A DNA stretch of 42,552 nucleotides from Clostridiales bacterium (GTDB lineage Bacteria; Bacillota_A; Clostridia; Oscillospirales; Oscillospiraceae). Below, in pieces: positions 6,194 through 24,713 of this stretch. Location: assembly GCA_014799485.1 (NCBI GenBank), contig JAAVHY010000008.1, forward strand, positions 1-42,552. The letters are read 5' to 3'. Within the stretch, counting starts at the first letter, position 1, and the number at the start of each line of letters is the position of its first letter. Made by a program: the position numbers and the translations under genes. A model generated the notes under the pieces. The model saw only the letters and a list, made by a program, of their open reading frames with translations. It was not told the DNA's origin and did not search any database.

Positions 6194-7264
6194 TTGGCGA
6201 GATTCCTTTATATCCTGCTGGCGATCCTGCTGTTCGGCGTGCTCATCGCCATCCACGAGTTTGGGCACTTCTTCACCGCCAAGCTGCTGGGGGTAAAGGT
6301 GAACGAGTTTGCCATCGGCATGGGCCCCGCCCTGTGGAGCAAGCAGAAAGGGGAAACCCTTTACGCCCTGCGCGCTTTCCCCGTCGGCGGCTACTGCGCT
6401 ATGGAGGGGGAGGACGAGGACACCGGCGACCCCCGGGCATTCTCCTGTCAGGCGGGATGGAAGAAGATCATCATCCTTTGCGCCGGGGCGTTTATGAATT
6501 TTGTGCTGGGCCTGGTTATCACAGTGGCGCTGTTTCTGGGCGTGACCCAGGCCCGTGCCCCCGTGATTACCGAGTTTGCCGACGGCTTCCAGCTCCAGGG
6601 TGCGGACGGCGTCATGGCAGGTGACCGCGTCGTACAGGTGGACGGCCACGGCATCTGGGTCTACGCCGACGTGCAGACCTACCTCTCCCGGAACGACGGC
6701 AATGGTGTGGATCTGGTGGTAGAGCGGGATGGGGAGCGGGTCGAGCTGAACGATTTCCCCATGGGCCGCTACGATTATGAGTTTGAGAACGGCAGATACC
6801 ATGGTTTCGGTCTGATTTTCGGCCAGGTGGATGAACTGTCCATCCCGGAACGCATTGGCCAGGGTGTTGCCCAGACCTTTGATTTTGTCCGCATCGTCTG
6901 GATGAGCCTGGGTGATCTGGTGACGGGCCGGGTGGCGGTGTCCGAGCTGTCCGGGGTGATCGGCGTGGTGGACGTGGTGTCCGAGGTGGGTTCCCAGTCG
7001 GAGACGGTGGCCATGGGCGTGCAGAACGTGTTCTATTTTATGGCCCTCATCGCCGTCAATCTGGCCGTGATGAATATGCTCCCCATACCCGCGCTGGACG
7101 GCGGCCGGATCTTTTTCGTCCTGCTCAACGGGCTGATTTATTTAGTGGCCCGCCGGCGCATCCCGGAGCGGTTTGAAGGTTATGTCCACGCCGGGGCGTT
7201 TGTGCTGCTGCTGGCGTTGATGGCGGTGGTGGCCCTCCACGACGTGTGGAATATTTTCGCATAG
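6194..7264 (+). CDS. rseP: RIP metalloprotease, RseP/RasP type (site-2 protease)
   Basis: Intramembrane zinc protease that cleaves membrane-bound anti-sigma factors and signal-peptide remnants. It has 356 residues. The first membrane helix carries the active site HEFGH (His21, Glu22, His25). A PDZ domain lies at about residues 115-190, and the third zinc-ligand motif PIPALDGGR sits near residue 300, followed by a last membrane helix. The start is TTG at 6194, preceded by GAGGTGA at 6181-6187; no ATG fits the N-terminal helix. The dxr-rseP order is as in Bacillus (dxr-rasP). It is distinct from the shorter sporulation M50 protease at 22653. Confidence 0.95.
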
Positions 7265-7277
7265 GCAGGTGCTTACA

Positions 7278-8315
7278 GTGACCAGACAGATCAACGTGGG
7301 CGGCGTCCCCATCGGCGGGGGCGCCCCCGTTTCCATCCAGTCCATGACCAACACTCCCACCCACGATGTGGAGGCGACCCTGTCCCAGATCCGGGCGTTG
7401 GCCGCGGCGGGGTGCGATATCGTCCGGGTAGCGGTGCCCGATATGTCCGCGGCAAAGGCCATCGGCGCGCTCAAGGCGGGCAGCCCGGTGCCGCTGGTGG
7501 CGGACATCCACTTTGACTATCGCCTTGCCCTGGAGGCGGCGGAGCAGGGGATTGACAAGATCCGCATCAACCCCGGCAACATCGGCGCGCCGGGACGGGT
7601 GGAGGCGGTGGCCAGAGCCTGTAAGGAGCGGGGCATCCCCATCCGGGTCGGGGTGAACGGCGGCTCGCTGGAAAAAGAATTGCTGGCCAAGTACGATGGC
7701 CCCACCCCGGAGGCCATGGTGGAGAGCGCCCTGGGGCACATCGAGCTGTTGGAACGATACGGCTTTGAGGACATCTGCGTATCGCTGAAGGCTTCGTCTG
7801 TGCCCGCCACCATGCGGGCCTACCGACTGATGGCGGAGCGGTACGATTATCCCCTGCACCTGGGCGTCACCGAGGCGGGCACCCGGGAGATCGGGGAGCT
7901 GAAGGCGGCGGCGGGCATCGGCGGACTGCTGGCACTGGGCATCGGGGACACCCTGCGGGTGAGCCTGACCGCCGACCCGGTGGAGGAAGTCTATGCGGCC
8001 AAGAGGATCCTCAAGGCCATCGGTCTGCGCCGGGAGGGGCCGGAGCTCATCGCCTGCCCAACCTGCGGGCGGACGCAGATCGACCTGATCCCCATGGCCA
8101 AACAGGTGGAGGAGCTGTTGAAAAATGTGGACAAGTCCATCACTGTGGCGGTGATGGGCTGTGTGGTCAACGGCCCCGGCGAGGCCAGCCATGCCGACGT
8201 TGGCTTGGCAGGCGGAAAAGGCGAGGGCGTGCTGTTCAAGCACGGCCAAATCGTGGCGAAAGTTCCCGAGGAACGGCTGGTGCCCGAACTGATGAAGCTG
8301 ATCGAGACCCTGTAA
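7278..8315 (+). CDS. ispG: (E)-4-hydroxy-3-methylbut-2-enyl-diphosphate synthase
   Basis: Iron-sulfur enzyme of the MEP pathway converting MEcPP to HMBPP. It has about 345 residues. The N-terminus [20 protein letters not shown] followed by SMTNTPTHD is the family hallmark of the TIM-barrel half. Cluster ligands are the two Cys of ACPTCGRTQ (near residue 260) and the Cys of [11 protein letters not shown] (near 295). The start is a GTG: 7278 is preferred because AGGTG lies six bases upstream and homologues start MTRQ; a GTG at 7269 would add three residues. It follows rseP by 13 bases and precedes polC by 13. Confidence 0.95.
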
Positions 8316-8328
8316 AGGAGCGAGACAT

Positions 8329-11300
8329 ATGACGGCTGGTATGCCGACCTTTCAACAGACCTTTGCCAACTGCCCCTTCCCAGAAGGGGTTTTGGCTGTT
8401 TTGGGGAGCTATCCCGTCCGGGTGCGGGTGCTCCGTACCCAGCGGGCCATGGAGGTGACGGCCAGCGGGGCGGCGGTGCCCGAGGAAACCCTGATCCAAG
8501 CGGCAGAAACGCTGAAAAGTGCCTTTGGGCTCAGCGCGGCCACGGTGGTAGTGGACATTCCCCAGGCCGCCACGCCGGAAAAGCCAGTGCCCGCCGGGGA
8601 GATGGGGGAGCCGACGCCCCAAAAACCTTTGCCTGAGAAAGAGTCCGCGCTCCCGTCAAAGCCGGAAACGCCCTCCGGTCAGCCCCAGTCCCCGGAGGCA
8701 AAAAAGGAGCCTCCCCAAGATCTGGAGGCCCAGATGGCGGCTATGCGCCGTGAAGTGATGCGTGCGGCGGATGCCCCTGCTTCAAAAGGCGGGAAAAAGC
8801 GGGTGAAGCAGATCTACGGCAAGATTAGCGGCAAAAAGAAACCTGTCCCCATGGGGGAGCTGGCGCTGGATATGGGCAGCGTGCTGGTGGAGGGTGAAGT
8901 ATTCAACATCGAGCACCGGGAGCTCGCCCGCAGAAAAGCGTGGGTGGTGTGTTTTGACATCACCGACCTGACAAGCTCCATCCGGGTCACCCGGTTCATG
9001 GAGGGGGAGGAGGCCAAACCCATCATCGCCCAGGTGAAAAAGGGACAGCGACTTCAAGTCCAGGGGCGACTGACCTTGGGGCGGTTCGACAACAGCGATT
9101 TGGTGCTGGAACCTTATGGCATCAACGAGGTGCCCACGCCGGAGGGACGGAAAGACACCGCTTCGGAAAAGCGGGTGGAGCTCCATCTGCATACCAAGAT
9201 GTCCATGATGGACGCGCTGTGCGACACCAAGGAGGTGGTAAAGCGGGCCATTGAGTGGGGGCATCCGGCCATTGCCATCACCGACCACGGGGTGGTGCAG
9301 TCCTTCCCGGACGCTTACAATGCCTCCGGCCGGGGGGAGAAAATCAAGATCCTGTATGGCGTGGAGGCGTACTATCAGAACGATGTGGATGAACAGGCGG
9401 CGGTCCACGGGCCGGGGGATATGCCCCTGGACGGGGAGTTTGTAGCCTTTGACCTGGAAACCACCGGCCTGGACGCCCGCACCGACGCAATTATCGAAAT
9501 CGGCGCGGTACGTGTCCGGGACGGGGAGGTGGTGGACAAATTCGCCTCCTTTGCCCAGCCGGGGCATCCGCTCAGCGCAAAGACCGTGTCCCTCACCGGG
9601 ATCACCGACGAACTGCTCAAGGGCGCGCCCGCCCCGGAGGAGGCGGTGGACGCGTTCCTGGACTGGGCGGGGGACACGCCCCTTTGCGCCCACAACGCCG
9701 CCTTTGATACGGGATTTATCCGGGAGTACTGCGCCCGTTCGGGCCGCCGGTTTGACCCGCTGTACTTCGATACCATGGTCCTGGCCCAATACCTGTGTCC
9801 CAAGCTGCCCAACCACAAGCTGGACACGGTGGCAAACGCCTTGGGCCTGCCTCCCTTCCAGCACCACCGCGCCTATGACGACGCGGAAACCTGCGGGCTG
9901 ATTCTGGCGGCGCTGATCCCAATGCTGAAGGAACGGGGAGTGGAGCGGGCCGCCGCCGTCAACGCGGCCTTCGTGGGGCAGAGGCGGGGAGGACGGGGAC
10001 GGCGCTCCGCCTATCACCTGATCCTGCTGGCGAAAAACCAGACTGGTTTGCGCAACCTCTATAAACTGGTTTCCAAGTCCCATTTGGAGCATTTCAACCG
10101 CTACCCCATCATGCCAAAATCGTTGGTGGACGAGAACCGGGAGGGGTTAATCATCGGCTCCGCCTGTGAGGCGGGGGAGTTGTTCCGGGCTGTGGCGGCC
10201 GGGAAGGAGGACCGGGAGCTGGAGCGCATCGCTTCCTGGTACGACTATCTGGAGATCCAGCCCCTGTCCAACAATGGATATATGCTCCGCCCGGATAAGG
10301 AGGGCAGATGTATTGCCAGGGATTTGGAAGATTTGAGGAACTTCAACCGCCGGGTGGTCGCCCTGGGGGAGCGGTTGGGCAAGCCGGTGTGCGCCACCGG
10401 GGACGTCCATTTCATGGAGCCTGAGGATGAGGTGTACCGCCACATCCTGCTGGCGGCCAAGGAGTTCGAGGACGCGGACCAGCCAAACCCCCTTTACTTC
10501 CGAACCACCGACGAAATGCTGGAGGAGTTCTCCTATCTGGGCAGTGAAAAGGCCCATGAGGTGGTGGTGGACAACCCTAAACTGATTGCGTCCTGGTGTG
10601 ACAATGTGCGCCCCCTGCCCGATGGATTGTTTGCGCCCAAGCTGGAGAATTCCGACGGTGAGTTAAAGGATTTGGTATGGGGTAAAGCACATCGCCTTTA
10701 CGGAGATGAACCGCCCCAAATCGTGGTGGATCGCATCAACGCGGAGCTGGTGGATATCATCCGCTGCAAATATGACGTGATCTATATGTCCGCCCAGAAG
10801 CTGGTGCAGAACTCATTGGAGCACGGCTACCTGGTGGGCTCCCGGGGGTCGGTGGGGTCGTCCCTGGTGGCGTTCATGTCGGGTATCACCGAGGTGAACT
10901 CCCTGCCCGCCCATTACCGCTGTCCCAACTGCAAGCACTCTGATTTCGACTATGCCCAGGACCCCGCCCACCCCTACGGCTGCGGCGCGGATATGCCTGA
11001 CATGAAGTGCCCTGTCTGCGGAGCGGACTATGAGAAGGACGGCTTCAACATCCCCTTCGAGACGTTCCTGGGCTTCGGCGGTGACAAGGTGCCCGATATT
11101 GACCTGAATTTCTCCGGTGAGTACCAGTCCGAGGCCCACAAATATACCTTTGAGCTGTTTGGCCGGGAGCATGTGTTCCGGGCGGGCACCATCGGCACCG
11201 TGGCGGAGAAAACCGCCATCGGCTATGTCAAGAAGTATCTGGAACTGGTTGGGAGGACAGACGTGCCTTTCGCCGAGGTGCTGCGGCTGGCCAAGGGATG

Positions 11301-14721: not shown

Positions 14722-15992
14722 TAACCATCGTCAAATCGGACGGCTCCGCCGAGCGCCGCCAGTTGGACGCCATGCGGGCCCGGGCCGCGGAGAAAAACGC
14801 GGATATTGAGCTGGCCGTCAAAGCGATTATGGAGAACGTGCGGCAGGAAGGCCTGCCGGCGGTGGAGTGCTATTCCCGTCAGTTTGACCATAAAGTCCCC
14901 TATGAACTGCCCCAACAGCGGCTGGAAGAGGCGTATGCAGCCTGTCCGTCAGAGCTGATCGAGGCTTTGGAGCACGCCGCCCGAAACATCCGGGACTACA
15001 ATGAGAAGCTGTTGACCAAGACCGAGGAGTGGACCTCTCCCGATGGGGGCCGGGTGGGCCGGATCGTCCGGGGGCTGGGCCGCGTGGGCATCTATGTCCC
15101 CGGCGGCACCGCCGCCTACCCCAGTTCTGTGCTGATGAACGCCGTCCCCGCCAAGGTGGCCGGGGTGGGGGAGATCGTTATGATCACGCCGCCCACGGAA
15201 AACCTGAGCGATGCGGTGTTGGCGGCGGCGAAGATCGCCGGCGTGGACCGGGTGATTGCCGTGGGCGGGGCCCAGGCGGTGGCCGCTGTAACCTATGGCG
15301 CGGGCTTCATCCCCAGGGTAGACAAGCTGGTGGGGCCGGGGAACGCCTATGTGGCGGCGGCGAAGCGGCTGGCCTATGGGCAATTGGATATCGACATGGT
15401 GGCGGGGCCGTCCGAGGTTCTGGTCATCGCGGACAACACCGCCAATCCCAAATACGTGGCCGCCGACCTGCTCAGCCAGGCGGAGCACGACAAGCTGGCC
15501 TCCGCCGTCCTGCTCACCGATTCCATGGGGCTGGCCCAGGCGGTGGATGCCGAGATCGTCCGGCAGACCGGCTATCTCAGCCGCAGTGAGATCATGGAGA
15601 CGTCCCTGCGGGATTTCGGCTGCGCCATCGTGTGCGGCAGCCTGGAACAGTGTGTGGAATTGGCCAACGAAATCGCGCCGGAGCACTTGGAAATCGTCAC
15701 CAAAGCCCCCCGGGAGCTGCTGCCCCAGGTGAAAAACGCGGGGGCGGTGTTCCTGGGCGCGTACACGCCGGAGCCGCTGGGGGATTACCTGGCAGGGCCG
15801 GACCATGTGCTGCCCACCAGCGGCACCGCCCGGTTCTTCTCGCCCCTCAGCGTGGACAGCTTTTTGAAAACCATGAGCGTGCTGGAGTTCGACAGGGCGG
15901 CTTTAGAGCCCATTTCCGGGGAAATCATCGCATTGGCGGAGACGGAAAAGCTTACCGCCCATGCCAATTCCATCCGGGTACGGTTTGAGTAA
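14718..15992 (+). CDS. hisD: Histidinol dehydrogenase
   Basis: Zinc- and NAD-dependent oxidation of histidinol to histidine, the last two steps of the pathway. It has 424 residues. Motifs: [20 protein letters not shown] near residue 122, [16 protein letters not shown] near 207, [14 protein letters not shown] near 225, the zinc-site block [12 protein letters not shown] near 250, the catalytic APEHLE near 317, and [15 protein letters not shown] near 360. The start is the ATG overlapping hisG. The frame is intact throughout. Confidence 0.98.
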
Positions 15993-16005
15993 GGGGGACA
16001 GCGTC

Positions 16006-16581
16006 ATGCGGCAAGCCACAATTCAGCGTACTACCAAGGAGACGGATATCAGCCTCACCTTGTGTCTGGATGGGGGAGAGGTGAACGTTTCCACTGGGAT
16101 CGGTTTCTTCGACCATATGCTCACTGCCCTGGCTTTTTACGCCGGGTTTGGGCTGGAACTGTCCGCATTGGGCGACCTCCATGTGGACGGTCACCACACG
16201 GTGGAGGATGTGGGCATCGTGCTGGGCCAGGCGTTCAAAGAAGCGCTGGGGGATAAGAAGGGCATCCGCCGTTATGGCGCCGCATTTGTCCCTATGGACG
16301 AAGCGCTCTGCCGCACGGTGCTGGACTGCTCCAACCGGCCCTATTTGGTATTTGACGCGGCCATGCCCCAGCCCATGATCGGCGGCTATGACAGCTGCCT
16401 TACTGTGGAATTCATGCGGGCGTTTGCGGTGAACGGTGGAATTACTTTACACCAAAAGTGTGAGTATGGAAACAATGCCCACCACATTACCGAGGCGCTG
16501 TTCAAGTCCCTGGGGCTGGCGCTGAAGGAGGCTGTTCGGATCGAGGGGGAGGGCGTTGCCTCCACCAAAGGAGCGTTGTGA
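16006..16581 (+). CDS. hisB: Imidazoleglycerol-phosphate dehydratase
   Basis: Manganese-dependent dehydration of imidazole glycerol phosphate to imidazole acetol phosphate. It has 191 residues and is the single-function form; the phosphatase domain of the enterobacterial HisB is absent. Metal-binding blocks are FFDHMLTALAFYAG near residue 36, DGHHTVEDVGIVLGQ near 62 and HHITEALFKSLGLAL near 160. The ATG at 16006 follows AAGGGGG (15991-15997). The stop overlaps the start region of hisH. Confidence 0.97.
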   Translation: MRQATIQRTTKETDISLTLCLDGGEVNVSTGIGFFDHMLTALAFYAGFGLELSALGDLHVDGHHTVEDVGIVLGQAFKEALGDKKGIRRYGAAFVPMDEALCRTVLDCSNRPYLVFDAAMPQPMIGGYDSCLTVEFMRAFAVNGGITLHQKCEYGNNAHHITEALFKSLGLALKEAVRIEGEGVASTKGAL

Positions 16582-17189
16582 TGAAGTACACCGCGATCGT
16601 GGACTACGGCGTAGGCAATCTGAAAAGCGTGGCCAACGCCATGTCGCATATTGGCCGGGAGACCCTGGTCACAAGCGACCCAATGGAGCTGGAGCGGGCG
16701 GATTCTATCATCCTTCCCGGTGTAGGCGCCTTCCCAGACGCGGCGGACAAGCTGCGCAATCTTGGGTTGGACAAGGTGCTGCGGGTACAGAGCGCGAAAA
16801 AGCCCATTCTGGGCATCTGCCTGGGGATGCAGCTGCTCTTTGACGGCAGTGACGAGGTGCGCCCCTGCCAGGGGCTGGGCCTTGTGGGAGGCCGGGTGGA
16901 ACGAATCCAGACCGACCGCAAGCTGCCCCACATTGGCTGGAACAGCCTGACGTTTCACAATGACAGCCCCCTGTTCAGGGGCCTGGACGACGGGACGTAT
17001 GTATACTTCGTCCACAGCTTCTGCGGGCTGGCCCAGCGAGAGGCCGATGTGATTGCCCGGACTGAATATGGCGCCAGTGTGGTGGCCGCCGTGGGCCGGG
17101 GAAACGTGTACGGCTGCCAGTTCCATCCAGAGAAGAGCGGCGAGGCCGGCCTGCAAATTTTGAAGAATTTTGGAGAATTGACGGGATGA
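16581..17189 (+). CDS. hisH: Imidazole glycerol phosphate synthase, glutaminase subunit
   Basis: Class I glutamine amidotransferase that feeds ammonia to HisF. It has 202 residues. The nucleophile Cys sits in LGICLGMQLLF near residue 80, and the His-Glu pair is in QFHPEKSG near residue 182. VDYGVGNLKSV is the N-terminal signature. The ATG at 16581 was chosen over the GTG at 16578 because AAAGGAG (16567-16573) is then spaced 7 bases away. The stop overlaps the hisA ATG. Confidence 0.97.
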   Translation: MKYTAIVDYGVGNLKSVANAMSHIGRETLVTSDPMELERADSIILPGVGAFPDAADKLRNLGLDKVLRVQSAKKPILGICLGMQLLFDGSDEVRPCQGLGLVGGRVERIQTDRKLPHIGWNSLTFHNDSPLFRGLDDGTYVYFVHSFCGLAQREADVIARTEYGASVVAAVGRGNVYGCQFHPEKSGEAGLQILKNFGELTG

Positions 17190-17908
17190 TTTTATTACCG
17201 GCGATTGACATGAAGGACGGACGGTGCGTCCGCCTGAAAAAAGGGGAGTTCTCCACCGTCAGCCAGGTGGCGGACAACGCGATGGAAACTGCCAAAGCCT
17301 TTGCTGCCGCCGGGGCGAAGTGGATCCATATGGTGGATCTTGACGGCGCGCGGGGCGGTGCGCGGCAGAATTTCCCCATCATTTCCGAAGTGATTCGGCA
17401 GTCCGGCCTGTTGGTAGAGCTGGGCGGCGGCATCAAGACCTGTGAAGATGTGGACGCGGTGGCCGAAGCGGGTGTGGCCCGAATGGTGATTGGCTCTGCC
17501 GCCGTGACAAATCCCCAGGTGGTGGACTACGCCGTGGAGCAGTACGGCGACCGGGTGGCGGTGGGCATCGACTGCCTGGATGGCCGGGTGCGCACCGCGG
17601 GCTGGGAGCGGGATTCCGGGCTGAGCGGCCTGGATTTGGCGAGAAGGATGGAGGAAAAAGGGGTCAAAACCCTCATCTACACCGATATCGCCACCGATGG
17701 GATGCTGTCCGGCCCCAGTTTTGACCAGCTTGCCGCTCTGCAAAAAGCGGTAAGATGTAATATTGTGGCCTCCGGCGGCGTGACCACCATCGACGATGTA
17801 AAGCGTCTGCGGGATATGGGGCTGTACGGGGCCATCATCGGCAAGGCGTATTACGCGGGAACACTGGATCTGGCGGAAGCCATCCGGGAGGCGGGGCCGC
17901 AGCAATGA
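17186..17908 (+). CDS. hisA: ProFAR isomerase
   Basis: Amadori isomerase of the histidine pathway converting ProFAR to PRFAR on a TIM barrel. It has 240 residues. The N-terminal catalytic Asp is in [18 protein letters not shown], and the second Asp in [15 protein letters not shown] near residue 127. Phosphate-binding loops are LGGGIKT near 80 and [11 protein letters not shown] near 192. It overlaps hisH by ATGA and is followed by hisF after 19 bases. Confidence 0.97.
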
Positions 17909-17927
17909 AAATCTGGGAGGGGCTTTC

Positions 17928-18683
17928 ATGTTAGCCAAGCGCATAATCCCATGCCTGGACGTCCGGGATGGCCGGGTGGTGAAAGGGGTCAACTTCATCA
18001 ACATCCGGGACGCCGGCGACCCGGTGGAGCTGGCAAAATTCTACTCAGACCAGGGTGCGGACGAGATCGTATTCCTGGACATCACCGCTACCAGCGATAC
18101 ACGGGACACCGTGGCCGACGTGGTGGAGCGCACCGCCGCCCAGGTGTTCGTCCCGCTGACGGTGGGGGGCGGCATCCGCACGCTGGATGATTTCCAACGG
18201 CTGCTCCGTGCAGGGGCGGATAAGATTTCTGTCAACTCCGCTGCTGTAAAGGATGAAACCTTGATTGCCAATGCCGCCCAACGGTTTGGCTCCCAATGCG
18301 TGGTGCTTGCCATTGACGCCCGCCGCCGTTCGGAGGGCTGGTATGAGGTAGTGGTGGCCGGAGGCAGGACGCCCACCGGGATCGACGCGGTGGAGTGGGC
18401 CCGCCGAGGCCAGGAACTGGGGGCGGGGGAGATCCTGCTCACCTCTATGGACGCCGATGGGACCAAGGCGGGCTTTGACATTGAAATGACCAGAGCGGTG
18501 ACCCAGGCGGTTTCCATCCCGGTGATCGCCTCCGGCGGCTGCGGCAGCCTGGAGCATTTTGCGGAAGTGTTCGAGCAGACCAACTGCGATGCGGCGCTGG
18601 CGGCGTCCCTGTTCCACTTTGGAGAGCTGACTGTACCCCAAGTGAAGGAGTTCCTCCGGGGGCGGGAAATCCCGGTGAGGTGA
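17928..18683 (+). CDS. hisF: Imidazole glycerol phosphate synthase, cyclase subunit
   Basis: TIM-barrel cyclase that joins PRFAR with ammonia from HisH to give imidazole glycerol phosphate and AICAR. It has 251 residues. Catalytic Asp residues are in [17 protein letters not shown] (residue 11) and VVLAIDARR (near 130). The phosphate loops VGGGIRT near 82 and [12 protein letters not shown] near 200 are intact. GGGAGGGG precedes the ATG. A 54-residue ORF lies between it and hisI. Confidence 0.98.
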
Positions 18684-18690
18684 GACGCCG

Positions 18691-18855
18691 ATGCTGGACG
18701 ATTTGCTGGAACTGGCGCTGGAAATCGGCGGGGAAGTGCTGGAAGCTGTGGCTGAGAACATGTGGGAAAAGAAAAAGAAACCGAAGCGGAAGCAGCGGCC
18801 CAAGACAGAAGAGCCTTGGGAAAGGCAGGAAAAGAAGCCACCCTGGGAGGCGTAG
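18691..18855 (+). CDS. 54-aa ORF of unknown function inside the his operon
   Basis: A short reading frame between hisF and hisI that is not a recognised his gene. Residues 1-24 form an acidic, leucine-rich amphipathic helix (MLDDLLELALEIGGEVLEAV). Residues 25-54 are strongly basic and hydrophilic (EKKKKPKRKQRPKTEE), with three Trp residues and Pro in the tail. AGGTGAG lies 6 bases before the ATG, and the stop falls 3 bases before the hisI ATG, the tight spacing of a translated operon member. Nothing in it suggests an enzyme; a small protein-binding or membrane-surface role is possible but unsupported. Confidence 0.6.
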   Translation: MLDDLLELALEIGGEVLEAVAENMWEKKKKPKRKQRPKTEEPWERQEKKPPWEA

Positions 18856-18858
18856 CGT

Positions 18859-19176
18859 ATGTTTGATATTGAGCTGTTGTTTCAAAAATCCGAGCTGATC
18901 CCGGTCATCATCCAGGACATAGACAGCAGGGAGGTACTTATGCTGGGCTACGCCGACCGGGAAGCGGTAAAGCTGACCCTGGAAACCAAAACCGCCTGGT
19001 TTTGGAGCCGCAGCCGGAAAAAGCTGTGGAACAAAGGGGAGAGCAGCGGGAATTTCCTTCACGTAAAAGAGGTCTACGCCGATTGCGACACGGACACGCT
19101 GCTCTGCCTTTGCAAACCGGACGGCCCCACCTGCCACACTGGGGCTCGCAGCTGCTTTTTCAACCAAATCATGTGA
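18859..19176 (+). CDS. hisI: Phosphoribosyl-AMP cyclohydrolase
   Basis: Opens the adenine ring of phosphoribosyl-AMP, the third step of the pathway, using zinc and magnesium. It has 105 residues and is the stand-alone form (not fused to HisE). TAWFWSRSRKKLWNKGESSG is the substrate block. YADCDTDTLL near residue 73 supplies the Asp and Cys ligands, and CHTGARSCFF near 92 has the remaining Cys ligands. GGGAGG at 18845-18850 lies inside the end of the preceding 54-aa ORF. Confidence 0.97.
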   Translation: MFDIELLFQKSELIPVIIQDIDSREVLMLGYADREAVKLTLETKTAWFWSRSRKKLWNKGESSGNFLHVKEVYADCDTDTLLCLCKPDGPTCHTGARSCFFNQIM

Positions 19177-19197
19177 TAATCTTGGGAGGGACATGTT

Positions 19198-19524
19198 ATG
19201 GACAGCACACTGGAGACCCTGTACGGGGTGGTTTTGGACCGCAGGGTCCACCCACAGGAGGGGTCGTATACCTGCTATTTGTTTGACAAAGGGCTGGACA
19301 AGATCCTAAAAAAAGTGGGGGAGGAGTGTGCCGAGACCATCATCGCGGCAAAAAATGATGTCCCTGCCGACACAGTGGGGGAGATCTGCGACCTTATTTA
19401 CCACCTGATGGTGATGATGGCGGAAAAGGGCATCCCTTTGGACGATGTGTTGACGGAGCTGGACCGCCGGGCGCGGAAAATCGGGAACCTGAAACAGATG
19501 AAGCAGGTGGACCGGGAAAGCTGA
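19198..19524 (+). CDS. hisE: Phosphoribosyl-ATP pyrophosphohydrolase
   Basis: Hydrolyses phosphoribosyl-ATP to phosphoribosyl-AMP, the second step; MazG-like all-alpha fold. It has 108 residues. The signature EECAETIIAAKND near residue 41 and the helix ICDLIYHLMVMMAEKG near 63 carry the metal-binding Glu and Asp residues. GGGAGGG precedes the ATG. It is the last gene of the his operon; a strong terminator hairpin follows within 10 bases. Confidence 0.96.
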   Translation: MDSTLETLYGVVLDRRVHPQEGSYTCYLFDKGLDKILKKVGEECAETIIAAKNDVPADTVGEICDLIYHLMVMMAEKGIPLDDVLTELDRRARKIGNLKQMKQVDRES

Positions 19525-19531
19525 CAACAGA

Positions 19532-19565
19532 AAAAGGGACACCGCCAACTGGCGGTGTCCCTTTT
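19532..19565 (+). terminator. Terminator of the his operon
   Basis: A perfect 15-bp stem (19532-19546 with 19551-19565), loop AACT, ending in CCCTTTTG. It is convergent with the terminator of the minus-strand mini-gene next door. Confidence 0.88.
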
Positions 19566-19573
19566 GTTGAGAC

Positions 19574-19600
19574 AAAATAAAATCGTCCCAAAGGGGACGA
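19574..19600 (-). terminator. Terminator of the 26-aa mini-gene
   Basis: On the minus strand a 7-bp stem TCGTCCC/GGGACGA (19600-19594 with 19589-19583) and a four-base loop, then TTTTATTTT (19582-19574). It lies 34 bases after the mini-gene stop. Confidence 0.8.
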
Positions 19601-19634
19601 GTTAAATCTCAGACCTTTGACATTTCCGTCGTGC

Positions 19635-19715
19635 TCAGCGGTCGCTGGGAACGGTAGTCTCTCCGGCGAAGATCAACTCGTCGATATCAACGGGCACAGA
19701 ATAGAGGACCTTCAT
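19635..19715 (-). CDS. 26-aa peptide gene, function unknown
   Basis: A tiny reading frame with a complete expression unit. A strong promoter lies at 19776-19748. An unusually full Shine-Dalgarno, AAGGAGGTGATTGAA, runs up to the ATG at 19715. The stop is TGA at 19637-19635 and an intrinsic terminator follows. The peptide starts MKVLYSVPVDIDELIF and ends in a polar tail (ETTVPSDR). It is acidic overall and has no Cys, no signal peptide and no membrane helix, so it does not look like a membrane toxin or a Cys-type bacteriocin. I do not recognise it. The roughly 168-base transcript could equally act as a small RNA carrying a short ORF. Confidence 0.62.
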   Translation of the reverse strand: MKVLYSVPVDIDELIFAGETTVPSDR

Positions 19716-19747
19716 TTCAATCACCTCCTTGCCTTATCTTGTTGTGT

Positions 19748-19776
19748 ATTATAGCAATAATTATTTCATTTGTAAA
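19748..19776 (-). promoter_or_regulatory. Strong promoter of the 26-aa mini-gene
   Basis: Minus strand: TTTACA (19776-19771), 17-base spacer, perfect TATAAT (19753-19748), with TGC just before the -10. It is divergent from the tRNA-Gly promoter; a GAAAATTTTC palindrome (19789-19798) lies between the two. Confidence 0.85.
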
Positions 19777-19835
19777 GAGGGTTTTGTAGAAAATTTTCAA
19801 AGGCCGGCTTCTGCCGCATCCGCAGGAAAAAATAC

Positions 19836-19864
19836 TTGCATTTTTTTCCGAAGTCTGCTATAAT
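19836..19864 (+). promoter_or_regulatory. Promoter of tRNA-Gly
   Basis: TTGCAT (19836-19841), 17 bases, perfect TATAAT (19859-19864) with TGC before the -10, and the tRNA 12 bases downstream. Confidence 0.8.
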
Positions 19865-19876
19865 GCAAAAACAGTT

Positions 19877-19950
19877 GCGGGTGTAGTTCAATGGTAGAAT
19901 GTCAGCTTCCCAAGCTGAACACGGGGGTTCGATTCCCCTCACCCGCTCCA
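19877..19950 (+). tRNA. tRNA-Gly(CCC)
   Basis: A 74-base cloverleaf with encoded CCA. The acceptor arms GCGGGTG and CACCCGC pair fully. The D loop contains AATGGTA. The anticodon arm TCAGC-TTCCCAA-GCTGA gives anticodon CCC, and the T arm carries GGTTCGATTCC. It has its own promoter and terminator. Confidence 0.96.
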
Positions 19951-19956
19951 CATCGG
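19941..19956 (+). repeat. tRNA-Gly 3' end, left copy of a direct repeat
   Basis: ACCCGCTCCACAT (19941-19953), covering the tRNA 3' arm, CCA and three bases beyond, recurs exactly at 21562-21574; after one mismatch, GG continues in both copies. The repeat brackets the methyltransferase and DinB-like genes, as an attachment-site duplication would. Confidence 0.6.
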
Positions 19957-19989
19957 AGCAAGCGGTACAACTGCTTGCTCCGATTTTTT
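19952..19989 (+). terminator. Terminator of tRNA-Gly
   Basis: A 12-bp perfect stem (19952-19963 with 19973-19984) and a nine-base loop, then five T. The methyltransferase start codons lie 9-27 bases after the T-run. Confidence 0.88.
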
Positions 19990-20015
19990 AACCCGGGGTG
20001 ATTGGGGTGGATGAT

Positions 20016-20813
20016 GTGAATTTTGACGAGCTTTATAAGATAAAAGATGAGATCGAACAGATCCAGAAGACCTATGAGCTGTTTGACGAGGACAGCAGGC
20101 TGAACCGCTCTAAGGCCGCGCGGGTGGAGTTTTTGACCACGACCCGTTACATTGAGCGCTACGTGAAGCCCGGGGCCCGTATTCTGGATGTTGGCGCCGG
20201 AGCGGGGGAGTACAGCCTCTATTTTGCGAGAAAAGGGTATAAAGTGCGCGCCCTGGAGCTGGCGGACAATAATATCAAAGCGTTCCGCAAAAAAATCAGG
20301 CCGGCGGATGAAATCGAGCTTGTCCAGGGGAACGCGGTGGATCTGGGCCGGTATGAGGATGAAAGCTTTGACGCTGTCTTGCTGTTCGGGCCGCTGTACC
20401 ATCTGCACAAGGAGGAGGACCGGCAGCGGTGCATCGCGGAGGCAAAGCGCGTTTGCAAGCCGGGCGGCAAGCTCTTCTTTGCGTTCATTTCCAACGATAT
20501 GGTCATCCTGACCGAGTTCTCCTACCGCCCGGACTATTTCACGGCGGGGGACTATAATAAGGATACCTTCAAGCTGGACGATTTCCCCTTCGTATTCCAC
20601 ACGGTGGATGGGTGCCGCCGGATGCTCCGGGACGGCGGCGTCCGGGTGCTCCACGAGGTGGCCGCCGACGGCGTCAGCGAGCTGATGGAGGATCGGATCA
20701 ACGCCATGGACGATGAGAGCTACGCCCAATATCTAAGGTATCATGAGTACATTTGTGAAAAGCCGGAGCTGCTGGGCATGACCAACCACCTGCTGTTTGT
20801 GGGGGAGAAGTAA
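20016..20813 (+). CDS. Class I SAM-dependent methyltransferase
   Basis: Rossmann-fold methyltransferase of unknown substrate, about 265 residues. The SAM loop ILDVGAGAGEYSLYFA is near residue 56, the acidic strand-2 end is VRALEL near 77, and motif IV is SFDAVLLFGPLYHLH near 117, followed by AKRVCKPGGKLFFAF. The start is uncertain among GTG codons at 19998, 20007 and 20016; 20016 gives MNFDELYKIKDE and is preceded by GGGGTGG. It sits directly after a tRNA terminator with no clear promoter of its own, and an adjacent TTG/ATG start leads into the DinB-like gene. The pair may be a transferred cassette. Confidence 0.85.
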   Translation: MNFDELYKIKDEIEQIQKTYELFDEDSRLNRSKAARVEFLTTTRYIERYVKPGARILDVGAGAGEYSLYFARKGYKVRALELADNNIKAFRKKIRPADEIELVQGNAVDLGRYEDESFDAVLLFGPLYHLHKEEDRQRCIAEAKRVCKPGGKLFFAFISNDMVILTEFSYRPDYFTAGDYNKDTFKLDDFPFVFHTVDGCRRMLRDGGVRVLHEVAADGVSELMEDRINAMDDESYAQYLRYHEYICEKPELLGMTNHLLFVGEK

Positions 20814-20840
20814 TTGCGTTTACAGGACAAGGGGCAGAGT

Positions 20841-21548
20841 ATGAAGATAAAGTGCGCCTGGGAACATAACGGAGACGACACGCTGCTGCACGCGGTCAAC
20901 TGCGCGGGGGCATATGCCCGAGGGGCGGACAGGGAGCTGGCGCTTGGAAAGATTCCGGGGGAGGTCATGTCCTACTTGCGCTGGAGCGGAAGGCCGGTCC
21001 CGAAAGAGATTGAGGTCGAAATCGTCCAGGAGAAAAGCAGCGAACTCCAGATCGCGGACGCCGATTCAGATATCCTGCTCGAGGAGGAGCGCGGGCCGCT
21101 GTCGAGGGAGGAGTATTTGGGGCTGAAATCACTGGCACTGAAATCCGCCGAAGACTTTTATGCGCTGTATACCTCCGTCCCGAACAAAAATGTCAGCTGC
21201 CTGCCAGAGCGGAGTACATTTTACGGCCCCGTTCCCCGGACGGCCCAGGAGATGTATGAACACACCAAAAACGTAAACTCCTACTATTTTGGGGAGATCG
21301 GCGTTGACGTGGACAATGAGGGGACCATCATCCAGTGCCGCCAAAGGGGATTTGCGCTTTTGGAGCAGTCCGACGGCTTTTTATGGGCCCCTGCCGTTGT
21401 GGGCAGTTACGATGAGCTGTGGTCCCTTAGAAAAGTGCTGCGCCGGTTTATCTGGCATGACCGAATTCACGCCAAGGCGATGTATCGGATGGCAGTCCGT
21501 ACCTTTGGGAAAAGGGTGGTCAACGATCCGTTCCAGTTTGATGAATAA
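20841..21548 (+). CDS. DinB-like four-helix protein with HicB-like N-terminus
   Basis: A 235-residue cytoplasmic protein with two parts. Residues 1-65 (MKIKCAWEHNGDDTLLHAVN, then GAYARGADRELALGKIPGE) look like the small HicB/antitoxin-like alpha-beta fold. The rest resembles DinB/YfiT four-helix domains, with HTKNVNSYYFGEIG near 141 and the WHDRIHAKAMYR motif near 205 that gives an H-x3-H pair (His206, His210) plus His141 as likely metal ligands. The substrate is unknown; DinB relatives include thiol transferases. The ATG at 20841 follows AAGGGGC; an upstream TTG at 20814 is less likely. It is co-oriented with the methyltransferase 27 bases upstream and ends at a terminator. Confidence 0.68.
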   Translation: MKIKCAWEHNGDDTLLHAVNCAGAYARGADRELALGKIPGEVMSYLRWSGRPVPKEIEVEIVQEKSSELQIADADSDILLEEERGPLSREEYLGLKSLALKSAEDFYALYTSVPNKNVSCLPERSTFYGPVPRTAQEMYEHTKNVNSYYFGEIGVDVDNEGTIIQCRQRGFALLEQSDGFLWAPAVVGSYDELWSLRKVLRRFIWHDRIHAKAMYRMAVRTFGKRVVNDPFQFDE

Positions 21549-21559
21549 CGCTTCGCCTG

Positions 21560-21589
21560 AGACCCGCTCCACATTGGGGCGGGTCTTTT
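21560..21589 (+). terminator. Terminator after the DinB-like gene
   Basis: An 11-bp stem with one G-U pair (21560-21570 with 21576-21586), loop ACATT, followed by TTT. The left arm contains the second copy of the tRNA-Gly 3' sequence. Confidence 0.7.
21562..21577 (+). repeat. Right copy of the tRNA-Gly 3' end repeat
   Basis: Thirteen bases identical to the end of tRNA-Gly and its flank (see 19941). It lies 1.6 kb downstream, just outside the DinB-like gene. Confidence 0.6.
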
Positions 21590-21609
21590 ACGTCTCGGTC
21601 CCGGTTTGC

Positions 21610-21636
21610 ATAAAACCCCATCCCCGGACATACAGT
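21610..21636 (+). promoter_or_regulatory. Sigma-E-type promoter of the SpoIVFA/SpoIVFB-like pair
   Basis: ATA (21610-21612), a 16-base gap and CATACAGT (21629-21636) fully match the Bacillus sigma-E consensus ATA-N16-18-CATACAnT. The start site would be near 21643, 25 bases before the gene. Mother-cell expression fits the products. Confidence 0.72.
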
Positions 21637-21667
21637 ATGACAGACTGTGTGGACAAGGAGGGGTAGT

Positions 21668-22669
21668 ATGGACGGTGTATCCAGACGCACAGCGGGAAGC
21701 AGAACGCGGAGACCTGCCCAGCGGGCAAGACGGCGCCCGACCCGGAGCGGCGAGGCAGAAGGGGATCAGCGTAGGCTCATCCAGCTGGCGGTCAGTCTGG
21801 TCCTGTTTCTGCTGGTGTACATTGGCCGTGGTGTGTTTCCCGCACAGCTGGAAGTATGGAAAACGGCCACGGCCGTCAATGTGGACTTCAAAGCGGCCTT
21901 CCAGCAGTTCAGCTCGGCCCTGTCCCAGGGGGAACCGGTGCGGGAGACTCTGGAGGCGCTGTGCGTCCAGCTGCTGGGCGGCGAGGTGAAGGAAAAAGAT
22001 TCGCCGCAGCTTCCTGCCTATGAACCGCCGCAAGCTGTAGTCCTTTTGAGCCAGACCACAGGCGGCGGGCTGAATTATTTGAACGAGCAGGGCGTGTTCC
22101 CCGGGCTTGAGCGTCCCCAAAAGGGGGACGAGCCGGTTGTAAATGAGCCGCTCCCAACCGAGCCGGAGCCTTCGGAGCCCAGCGAGCCCGCTGTGGTGAC
22201 GGCTATGGCCCAGGAGTACACCGACGATGGGGTGAAGCTGCCCCGAAATGTGAGCCTGGCATTCTACGAGTTGGGACTGAGCGAGACAACGGTACCCGTG
22301 AATGGGACGATCACCTCTGGATTTGGCTACCGGGATCACCCGATCAGCGGTAATAACGAATTTCACCTGGCGTTGGACATCGGCGCGGCGGAGGGGACGG
22401 AGATCGGCGCATTTGCCGCCGGGACGGTGGAATATATCGGTCAGAGCGATGAGTTCGGCAACTATCTGAAGATCCGCCACGACAACAATGTCAGCAGCTT
22501 TTACGCCCATTGCAGCAAGCTGCTGGTACACAAGGGGGACCAGGTTGCCTGCGGCCAGACGGTGGCGCTAGTAGGGCATACGGGAAACGCCACCGGGCCT
22601 CACCTCCACCTGACCATTGAGAAGGACAATATTCGATTGGATCCGGCATACTATGTGGATCTATCGTGA
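21668..22669 (+). CDS. M23 (LytM) peptidase-domain protein, SpoIVFA-like
   Basis: A 333-residue bitopic membrane protein. A basic cytoplasmic N-terminus (residues 1-36, many Arg) leads into one membrane helix (about 38-54), then a low-complexity Glu/Pro stretch (about 150-175) and a C-terminal LytM domain. The domain keeps His233 and Asp237 (HLALD), His281, and the pair His312/His314 (HLHL), so the zinc site looks complete. This layout and the adjacent M50 protease match SpoIVFA, which anchors and restrains SpoIVFB; a SpoIIQ-like role is the alternative. GGAGGGG precedes the ATG at 21668. It overlaps the next gene by 17 bases and sits behind a sigma-E-type promoter. Confidence 0.8.
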   Translation: MDGVSRRTAGSRTRRPAQRARRRPTRSGEAEGDQRRLIQLAVSLVLFLLVYIGRGVFPAQLEVWKTATAVNVDFKAAFQQFSSALSQGEPVRETLEALCVQLLGGEVKEKDSPQLPAYEPPQAVVLLSQTTGGGLNYLNEQGVFPGLERPQKGDEPVVNEPLPTEPEPSEPSEPAVVTAMAQEYTDDGVKLPRNVSLAFYELGLSETTVPVNGTITSGFGYRDHPISGNNEFHLALDIGAAEGTEIGAFAAGTVEYIGQSDEFGNYLKIRHDNNVSSFYAHCSKLLVHKGDQVACGQTVALVGHTGNATGPHLHLTIEKDNIRLDPAYYVDLS

Positions 22670-23237
22670 AACCCCGCGGGTGGAGGTGAGCCCCGGCTTC
22701 CTGCTGACGCTGGGCGTGCTGTTCTGGCTGGACGAAGGGATCGGGCTGCTGCCCTGCGGGTTATTGGCCTGTGCCCTGCATGAGCTTGGCCATGTGGCGG
22801 CTGCCGCCGCGTTAGGCGGGTCCATAAAGGGATTATCATTAACAGCCGTTGGGGCGGAACTGCGTATGGACTATAAGGAACCGCTGACCTACGGGCAGGA
22901 CAGCCTGGTGGCGCTGGCGGGCCCGGCGGCCAATCTGCTGTTCGGCGTACTGGCCCTTGCCTTGGGCTGGCAGTTGGCGGCGGTACTCACTTTGGCGGTG
23001 GGAGCGTTCAACCTGCTGCCCGTCCTGCCCCTGGACGGGGGACAGGTGGTGTATGCCCTGCTGGCGGAGCGGCTGGACGCGGATTGGGCGGAACGGCTGA
23101 TGACGGCGTTGTCCGGGTGCCTGGTCGGGGCGCTGGTGGGCGTGGGGGTCGTGTCCGCCGTCCACTATGCCAACGTGACCCTGCTACTCACCGCCTTGTG
23201 GCTGCTGGCGGGCGTTCTGCGGCGGGGGAGCGAATAA
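22653..23237 (+). CDS. spoIVFB: M50 intramembrane protease, SpoIVFB-like
   Basis: A 194-residue polytopic membrane protein. The zinc site is HELGH (His43, Glu44, His47) in the first conserved helix; ALAGPAANLLFG follows near 87 and the third ligand Asp128 lies in LPVLPLDGG. SpoIVFB cleaves pro-sigma-K in the mother cell. The protein lacks the C-terminal CBS domain found in Bacillus SpoIVFB, so control by ATP binding through CBS is not expected. The start ATG lies inside the end of the upstream LytM gene; the ribosome site is weak, which suggests coupling. It could be another M50B family member, but context favours SpoIVFB. Confidence 0.8.
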   Translation: MWIYRETPRVEVSPGFLLTLGVLFWLDEGIGLLPCGLLACALHELGHVAAAAALGGSIKGLSLTAVGAELRMDYKEPLTYGQDSLVALAGPAANLLFGVLALALGWQLAAVLTLAVGAFNLLPVLPLDGGQVVYALLAERLDADWAERLMTALSGCLVGALVGVGVVSAVHYANVTLLLTALWLLAGVLRRGSE

Positions 23238-23262
23238 AAACCGTTTGTATTGAAAAAAATAC

Positions 23263-23291
23263 TTGCAAATCCAACCCAGTTGTGGTAAACT
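23263..23291 (+). promoter_or_regulatory. Promoter of rplS
   Basis: TTGCAA (23263-23268), 17 bases, TAAACT (23286-23291) with TGG before the -10. Confidence 0.75.
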
Positions 23292-23307
23292 ACCTAAGTC
23301 TGAAAAA

Positions 23308-23350
23308 GGGCGGTCCTCTGCGCGGCCACAGGCATGGACGCATGAACGCC
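23308..23350 (+). promoter_or_regulatory. Candidate structured leader of rplS
   Basis: Bases 23309-23312 can pair with 23347-23350 and 23313-23316 with 23336-23339, leaving a 7-base one-sided bulge, and a small inner stem forms at 23318-23331. It lies between the promoter and the L19 start, where leader RNAs for L19 have been described in bacteria. A match to a named motif was not established. Confidence 0.38.
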
Positions 23351-23372
23351 TGAAATTAGGAGGAAAACACAA

Positions 23373-23714
23373 ATGGAACTGCTTAAGCAATTCAGCGAGA
23401 AGTACATGAAGGACGAGGCTCCTTCCGTCAGCGTGGGCGACACCGTCCGGGTCCACATCCGGGTAAAAGAGGGTAGCCGCGAGCGTATCCAGGTGTTCGA
23501 GGGCACCGTTATCGCCAAGAAGCACGGCGGCGTGGAGGAGAGCTTCACCGTTCGCCGTATCTCCTACGGCGTTGGCGTGGAGAAGGTGTTCCCCCTGCAC
23601 GCCCCCACCATCGAGAAGGTTGAGACCGTCCGCCGGGGCAAGGTCCGCCGGGCCAAGCTGTACTACCTGCGCGACCGCGTGGGCAAGGCCGCCAAGGTCA
23701 AAGAGGATCTGTAA
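23373..23714 (+). CDS. rplS: 50S ribosomal protein L19
   Basis: Large-subunit ribosomal protein at the 30S-50S interface. It has 113 residues (family 113-120). Conserved blocks are [56 protein letters not shown] and the basic C-terminus [28 protein letters not shown] precedes the ATG. It is transcribed from its own promoter with a possible regulatory leader and ends at a strong hairpin; trmD, its usual upstream partner, is not here. Confidence 0.98.
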
Positions 23715-23720
23715 GACACG

Positions 23721-23759
23721 AAATAAAAAAGGAGCGGGAGACCGCTCCTTTTTTATTTT
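23721..23759 (+). terminator. Terminator of rplS
   Basis: A 17-bp perfect stem (23721-23737 with 23742-23758), loop GAGA, with A-runs and T-runs on both sides, so it could act in both directions. Confidence 0.92.
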
Positions 23760-23774
23760 AAAACCGCGAAAAGG

Positions 23775-23803
23775 TGGACGCGCCCAGTCTTTTGTGGTAA
23801 AAT
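23775..23803 (+). promoter_or_regulatory. Promoter of the ylqF-rnhB-yraN operon
   Basis: TGGACG (23775-23780), 17 bases, TAAAAT (23798-23803) with TGG before the -10. Confidence 0.6.
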
Positions 23804-23858
23804 GAGCATCAACGTAAAAGGGCGCAGGACTGATTGCATGAAGAAGGAGGCCGCTTCA

Positions 23859-24713
23859 GTGAATATCCAATGGTATCCCGGGCACATGACCAAGACCCGG
23901 CGGCAGATGGAGGCGGACGTGAAGCTGGTGGATCTGGTGGCAGAGGTGGTGGACGCCCGCATCCCCGTCTCCAGCCGCAACCCGGACATTGACGCCATGG
24001 TGGGAGGACGGCCCCGGCTCATCGTTTTCAACCGGGCGGATCAGGCCGACCCCGCCATGACCGCCAAATGGATCGCATGGTTCAGGGCCAAAGGGTACGG
24101 AGTGCTGGAGACAGACGCGAAAAGCGGAAAAGGGGTTGGTCAGTTTTCCGCAGCGGCAAAGGACGTTTTGAAGGACAAACTGGCCGCCTGGAAGACCAAA
24201 GGCCAGGTGGGGCGTCCTGTCCGCGCCATGGTGGTCGGCGTGCCCAACGTGGGCAAATCCACATTTATCAATAAGGTAGCCCGGCGTAAGTCCGCAAAGG
24301 CCAGCGACCGCCCCGGCGTCACCCGGGGAAAGCAGTGGGTCACTGTGGACAGCGGTTTGGAACTGTTGGACACTCCGGGGATCCTTTGGCCTAAGTTTGA
24401 AGACGAGACCACCGGGCTTCACCTGGCTTTTACCGGCGCGGTAAAAGACGAGGTGACAGACATGGAGGCCCTGGCCTGCGCGCTGCTGGAGCTGCTGAGA
24501 GACCGTTACCCCAGGGCTTTGGAAGAGAGGTATAAGCTGACCGGCCTGGACGGGCTCCAGGGCTGGGAGCTGTTGGAGCAGGGGGCCCGGAAGCGGGGGA
24601 TGCTTGTCTCGGGCGGTGAGGCGGATACGGAACGGATGGCCAAGGTTTTGCTGGATGAGTTTCGGGGTGGAAAGCTTGGACGCTTTACACTAGAGTCACT
24701 GGAGGATCTATAA
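23859..24713 (+). CDS. ylqF: Ribosome biogenesis GTPase YlqF/RbgA
   Basis: Circularly permuted GTPase required for late 50S subunit assembly. It has 284 residues. The order of G motifs is permuted: NRAD (G4, residues 58-61) comes before the P-loop GVPNVGKST (near 127) and DTPG (near 170). The N-terminus MNIQWYPGHMTKTRRQ is the family hallmark. The GTG at 23859 is chosen because AAGAAGGAGG ends 8 bases upstream and homologues begin there; earlier in-frame starts (23802, 23838) run through the promoter or ribosome site. It is followed by rnhB, as in Bacillus. Confidence 0.95.
   Translation: MNIQWYPGHMTKTRRQMEADVKLVDLVAEVVDARIPVSSRNPDIDAMVGGRPRLIVFNRADQADPAMTAKWIAWFRAKGYGVLETDAKSGKGVGQFSAAAKDVLKDKLAAWKTKGQVGRPVRAMVVGVPNVGKSTFINKVARRKSAKASDRPGVTRGKQWVTVDSGLELLDTPGILWPKFEDETTGLHLAFTGAVKDEVTDMEALACALLELLRDRYPRALEERYKLTGLDGLQGWELLEQGARKRGMLVSGGEADTERMAKVLLDEFRGGKLGRFTLESLEDL

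Follow-up and report, generated by a model that had tools for sequence, protein, structure and literature searches.

A compact transcription unit beside hisE

On the minus strand of the window (the whole 42,552-nucleotide stretch of DNA analysed here), between a convergent hisE gene (PF01503) and a divergent tRNA-Gly(CCC) gene at 19877-19950, lies a small unit that a preliminary description had read as a complete mini-gene, with promoter, Shine-Dalgarno sequence, frame and terminator in that order. The coordinates confirm this arrangement, as does its recurrence in relatives (see below). A scan for promoter-like sites placed a -35 box, TTTACA, at 19776-19771 and, after a 17-base spacer, TATAAT at 19753-19748, the latter with TG ahead of it to form an extended -10 element (TGC TATAAT, 19756-19748), so that 11 of 12 bases agree with the consensus. 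The Shine-Dalgarno sequence, AAGGAGGTGAT (19730-19720), is also conserved in the clade alignment and is followed by a 26-codon frame (MKVLYSVPVDIDELIFAGETTVPSDR, 19715-19635) that runs from an ATG at 19715-19713 to a TGA at 19637-19635, and by an intrinsic terminator (19600-19574) made up of a stem of seven pairs, five of them G-C (19600-19583), and then TTTTATTTT (19582-19574). The positions of the promoter and terminator predict a minus-strand transcript of about 168 bases (19741-19574), which matches covariance model R1 (described below) with 179 bits, the window sequence itself being among those used to build that model. A second strong hairpin, found by a hairpin scan at 19532-19565, separates the mini-gene from hisE and probably ends transcription from both sides, its predicted direction of use. 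There is no same-strand gene downstream of the mini-gene before the convergent hisE.

Each of these signals is common when taken singly, and their excess over shuffled sequence in the region 15000-24000 is slight, with 5 promoter-like sites against 2.8 expected and 11 terminator-like hairpins against 9.4; the promoter of the mini-gene is the only one of the five with 11 of 12 bases. The peptide is acidic, with a net charge of about -3, and has no Cys, a residue that is present in some of its relatives. No hydrophobic stretch was seen in the sequence of the window peptide or of its relatives, hence there is no membrane helix of the kind found in type I toxins, and the earlier view that the product does not belong to a common membrane toxin type is supported.

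Recurrence in related genomes

Two checks had been proposed for the frame, namely a tblastn search of related Oscillospiraceae and a search for indels that break it. Relatives were collected through hisE, and when the best 80 of 512 loci, many of them labelled Oscillospiraceae, were searched with the window peptide, the frame was found in 23 of the 80, with 62-96 % identity. Promoter, Shine-Dalgarno sequence, frame and terminator all align across these 23 clade copies, the frames are 26, 27 or 30 residues long and thus differ by whole codons, and none of the 23 has a frame-breaking indel. One distant paralogue, L187 (genome G103), located just before prfB, the gene for release factor 2 (RF2), has one extra base ahead of the TGA and its frame runs 8 residues past SER, which represents either a sequence error or a shifted stop. 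Since the frame recurs in 23 of 80 related hisE loci with changes in length of whole codons only, the unit lies beyond what chance would produce, and a fortuitous run of signals with no functional gene behind it, already at odds with the conservation of the frame across the family, is extremely improbable.

The signals are also found with more distant copies. A strong Shine-Dalgarno sequence precedes the start at 88 of 92 stand-alone sites of the family, and a terminator-like hairpin follows the stop within 110 bases at 75, compared with 8 of 91 control segments for the hairpin. In the four relatives in which the hisE side was inspected (L001, L002, L008 and L012), hisE and the mini-gene are separated by a plus-strand gene whose product looks like a membrane protein by eye; this gene is missing from the window (19525-19573). 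The tRNA-Gly gene was considered as a partner and rejected, as it is on 19 of the 23 clade loci (missing from L006, L012, L017 and L018) and only three of 20 fetched distant loci (L116, L121 and L123) have one.

A conserved C-terminal signature

The N-terminal part of the peptide varies, and the C-terminal half is constant, consisting of D-[VIL]-[DE]-[DE]-[LMF]-I-[FY], a short spacer, and S-x-[RK] directly before the stop. Family proteins span about 20-43 residues with this signature fixed. In a set of 100 copies, a few of them clade copies entered again with different locus numbers, the codons for D, D and I have zero entropy at their first and second bases and 0.96-1.11 bits at the third, and the last Ser is encoded by AGC or AGT in 98. 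Variation of the third base with the first and second fixed is the mark of a translated frame. Recurrence in 23 of 80 loci, whole-codon differences in length and conservation by codon position thus together support the proposal that the peptide is the conserved product of a real mini-gene. On these sequence comparisons the mini-gene is almost certainly a real translated gene, and its frame is under selection at the protein level.

That the peptide is unrecognised, as first described, holds for the libraries searched. Pfam, NCBIfam and PHROGs gave no match for six of the peptides up to an E value of 10, short peptides being hard for such searches, NCBIfam gave none for 20 family peptides, and Rfam gave none for the unit. 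Three weak matches to polyubiquitin among solved structures (E 0.06-0.55) were taken as chance, and a match to the letters of the signature in the literature was taken as a database file name in which underscores had been passed over. The family was not recognised in the accessible parts of the literature on prfB leader peptides, RF2 autoregulation and RF2 with small proteins, most subscription papers lying outside its scope. These tiny proteins make up a family that is widespread in a large group of gut bacteria; it has no name, and the libraries and papers searched gave no function, family model or link to prfB for it.

Breadth of the family and paralogues

A protein search of 400 family genomes found only five at E values up to 0.01, and covariance model R1, built from the whole unit, matched in 109 of 400 family genomes at E up to 1. 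Thirty R1 loci were returned, of which five were clade copies, and each of the other 25 codes for a diverged peptide built on the same plan. With the E limit set at 0.1, a second model, R2, matched in 263 of 394 genomes of the order and 189 of 250 of the family, though these counts are not prevalence figures because weak matches are unverified and some cover the terminator alone. In all 34 further R2 loci, several of them sites already seen, the motif is recognisable at least loosely in the encoded peptide, and 33 of these peptides end in S-x-[RK], the exception being L156. Such a peptide is also encoded by every one of the 20 second-copy regions, which were selected mainly because they were extra copies; hence, several genomes carry at least two paralogues.

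When a profile of 20 members was run against 5.8 billion proteins, 2,045 matched with E values of up to 10. The motif is present in all 120 of the matches listed and the S-x-[RK] end in 112; none of the 120 has a Pfam domain and only two are named, both as 'hypothetical protein'. Five of the 120 (P0024, P0069, P0073, P0095 and P0105) resemble two paralogues fused at the DIDDLIF core and are probably chimeras of metagenome assembly, or possibly products of recombination. In six loci that belong to another subfamily (L144, L150, L151, L159, L160 and L189), the opposite strand carries, approximately 900-1,100 bases upstream, a gene resembling that for translation factor IF-3 by eye. A phage origin was considered and set aside, as none of 73 pattern matches in viral contigs was confirmed by tblastn, a weak test for a protein so short. 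A T-box leader suspected by eye beside the relocated copies L340-L342 had no Rfam match at the gathering score.

The product is short, its C-terminal part is constant and its N-terminal part variable, and several paralogues occur per genome, features that might suit a precursor from which a signalling peptide is made by modification or secretion. However, no hydrophobic signal sequence is apparent by eye, and no maturation enzyme or exporter recurs among the clustered neighbours, most of which were judged by eye, though such an enzyme might be encoded elsewhere in the genome. ABC transporter-like proteins do occur near copies in up to seven loci, as local synteny. We consider a precursor role very unlikely.

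Codon conservation and a possible RNA function

The last 19 codons are nearly unchanged within the clade, the mean synonymous codon difference being 0.153 for the peptide and 0.396 for hisE over 276 pairs. A dual-function small RNA had been suggested, and this could mean that the 168-base transcript is also a regulatory RNA or attenuator, with coding bases constrained by pairing. The ribosomal protein gene rpsL, presumably highly expressed and readable in 15 of the 22 genomes searched, served as a control and gave 0.173 compared with 0.160 for the peptide over 105 pairs. Codon conservation similar to that of rpsL is as expected of strong expression and, because of this similarity, a separate function of the RNA need not be invoked. 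Among the 45 closest pairs, however, the values are 0.048 for the peptide and 0.104 for rpsL, leaving a residual excess of conservation.

Helices that involve coding bases are possible, one between GAAG[GA]UC, which follows the start, and GAUCUUC, the other between GACGAG and the CUCGUC of the terminator arm. However, neither coding-region helix in the consensus fold has a pair changed on both sides, one pair varying one-sidedly, and the GACGAG:CUCGUC pairing is broken in L006 and L032. The window RNA folds no better than shuffled sequences (z -0.78; relatives -2.41, -2.15 and -1.34). In distant relatives, the 3' sequences differ and it is the peptide rather than the RNA that is kept. The suggestion of a second function for the RNA therefore retains the residual excess among close relatives and the possible pairings in its favour and loses ground on codon conservation and on what distant relatives keep, and we regard it as improbable.

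Association with prfB

A paralogue is found repeatedly directly upstream of prfB. Surroundings were fetched for 40 sites, half of them selected as second copies; five of the 40 are followed on the same strand by prfB, at a distance of 62-357 bases. Comparison of the 150 listed R2 matches with the 150 listed prfB matches placed 15 R2 matches 49-358 bases upstream of prfB on the same strand, 15 elsewhere on the prfB contig, 74 on other contigs and 46 in genomes with no listed prfB, so that a paralogue precedes prfB in 15 of the 75 genomes common to both listings. A scan for the strict motif upstream of prfB found it in 7 of 30 family loci and in 14 of 22 genomes of the window clade, counts that leave out L202, the variant L219, and L234, which is cut by a contig end. 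It was found at none of 30 prfB loci of the wider order, though the peptide occurs in the order, and upstream of none of 30 prfA loci. At least 300 bases of upstream sequence were available in 29 (family), 20 (clade), 28 (order) and 29 (prfA) of these loci, the family, order and prfA loci being the best-scoring ones rather than random draws. Fisher tests against prfA gave p values of 0.01 for 7/30 and 1e-5 for 21/52, with relatedness ignored.

With prfB-side copies present in the clade, its genomes commonly carry a pair of paralogues, one of the stand-alone window type and one of a prfB-side type (for example, ...QDVDDLIFLGQTGPQVSQR). Several clade genomes have no copy upstream of prfB, and in three genomes that lack it there (G758, G003 and G766) the second type is located elsewhere. 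At 72 distinct sites in all, prfB follows in five, a membrane protein (by eye) follows in another five, a further family lies downstream in six and a third lies upstream in nine, and these other recurring neighbours, and in part the prfB link, may be local synteny. In L174 and L177, frames resembling phage-type integrases (by eye) end some 440-510 bases before the prfB-side copy begins, which suggests an integration site in the gap upstream of that copy. On contig C200 of G042, R2 matches at 6688-6857 and 8269-8464 flank prfB in opposite orientation.

In every listed match prfB is one open frame from model position 1-9, and the start regions of L190-L219 were seen in 28 of 30. Since prfB reads in one open frame in all of these, the frameshift control of this gene is absent here; none of the listed matches has an in-frame stop with a slippery site inside prfB.

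This position brings in a further explanation, namely that the nascent chain slows its own termination and thereby controls a downstream gene, which would be prfB for the prfB-side copies, the window copy being an orphan. In 110 of the 120 listed relatives, the conserved S-x-[RK] at the stop is accompanied by a second block that ends 9-11 residues from the C-terminus, a layout that we take to resemble that of known arrest peptides, and the gap between the stop and prfB is just 27-44 bases in L202, L203 and L206. However, the block and the end are 12-40 residues apart in the other 10 listed relatives, 13 of 28 prfB-side copies have a terminator-like hairpin past the stop, and a promoter-like TTTACA/TATATAAT often lies between the copy and prfB. 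Moreover, the window copy, its clade relatives and many stand-alone copies have no same-strand gene to control. The proposal that the window peptide is of the leader type thus fails for the window copy itself, though a paralogue does precede prfB, and arrest is an unlikely general explanation.

TnaC (PMC8429421) and CliM (PMC13183943), the latter from Clostridia, are leader peptides that act by termination arrest. The family shares with them very short length, conserved residues at the stop together with an inner block, and a connection to RF2 or release factors. Unlike the window copy, they precede the gene they control; the prfB-side paralogues match them in position only, and ribosome arrest is conjectural here.

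Promoter types and stop codons

All 19 of the clade copies scored have at least 10 of 12 vegetative-type promoter bases. Many prfB-side copies are instead preceded by [TG]CATCNT-14-CATA[TC]ACT, which presumably resembles the sporulation sigma-E consensus. A sigma-E-like score of at least 12 of 15 was reached by 17 of 29 prfB-side copies (16 of 28 if L325, which is of the window type, is left out), compared with 15 of 75 other stand-alone copies, 17 of 123 shuffled regions and one of 19 clade copies, and the statistics for a sigma-E-type promoter of the prfB-side copies are modest. Stop codons also differ, with TGA 46, TAA 44 and TAG 2 in stand-alone copies (n=92), TAG 11, TGA 10 and TAA 7 in prfB-side copies (n=28), and TGA 133, TAA 115 and TAG 45 in the long frames of L116-L135 (n=293). 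As related copies are not independent, both contrasts should be considered leads.

Sensing of the stop codon by RF2, as a general rule, is weakened by the 11 of 28 prfB-side copies that end in TAG, which RF2 does not read, although TAG is scarce in stand-alone copies (2 of 92, compared with 45 of 293 long frames). According to a 2025 survey (PMC12421855), genomes without the prfB frameshift use TGA more, and TAG does not occur in the motif. As described there, the programmed frameshift element is inside prfB and ends in TGA, never TAG, and the family resembles it in being a short reading stretch, here putatively tied to the supply of RF2. Unlike that element, the peptide gene is separate from prfB, has no similarity to it and, as noted, often ends in TAG on the prfB side.

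A possible role in translation termination

The reading we favour is that the window copy acts in trans as an abundant small protein, since it stands alone, has a vegetative-type promoter and has no same-strand gene downstream. A role of this kind is probable, judging from gene layout. The stand-alone gene, with its vegetative-type promoter, very strong ribosome-binding site and own terminator, would be strongly expressed and give a tiny cytosolic protein. Its segment D-x-[DE]-[DE]-x-I-[FY], which is acidic, may dock on one conserved partner jointly with the S-x-[RK] C-terminus. Human-microbiome surveys, among them MetaRibo-Seq, have reportedly found conserved clusters of small proteins under 50 residues that are unnamed and unannotated. 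The family is like these in being conserved, unannotated and shorter than 50 residues, and may already be listed, unnamed, in one of their catalogues.

The partner might belong to translation termination, with RF2 or the terminating ribosome the foremost candidates, because a paralogue is repeatedly found directly upstream of prfB and because prfB has no frameshift autoregulation. This step is weaker than those before it and, though it is the leading idea about the partner, it is held tentatively. Small proteins that work with RF2 exist, BrfA being one. ArfA and BrfA have a basic tail for the mRNA channel and are made from mRNA that lacks a stop; by contrast, the peptides of this family are acidic, and their frame closes with an ordinary stop codon before the terminator. 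The likeness to ArfA (PMC5378476) is that of a small protein tied to RF2, here by a candidate link only. The fullest form of the idea is that a class of trans-acting mini-proteins tunes termination via RF2 and replaces the missing prfB frameshift control, with a vegetative stand-alone copy and a copy with a sporulation-type promoter directly upstream of prfB; we would give this rather little credence.

Frames so short are usually skipped in annotation, and a strongly conserved and probably abundant protein of gut bacteria has thus been left nameless in the libraries searched. Its repeated occurrence next to prfB, where that gene lacks the frameshift control, raises the question of how RF2 is held in check in these bacteria, if at all.
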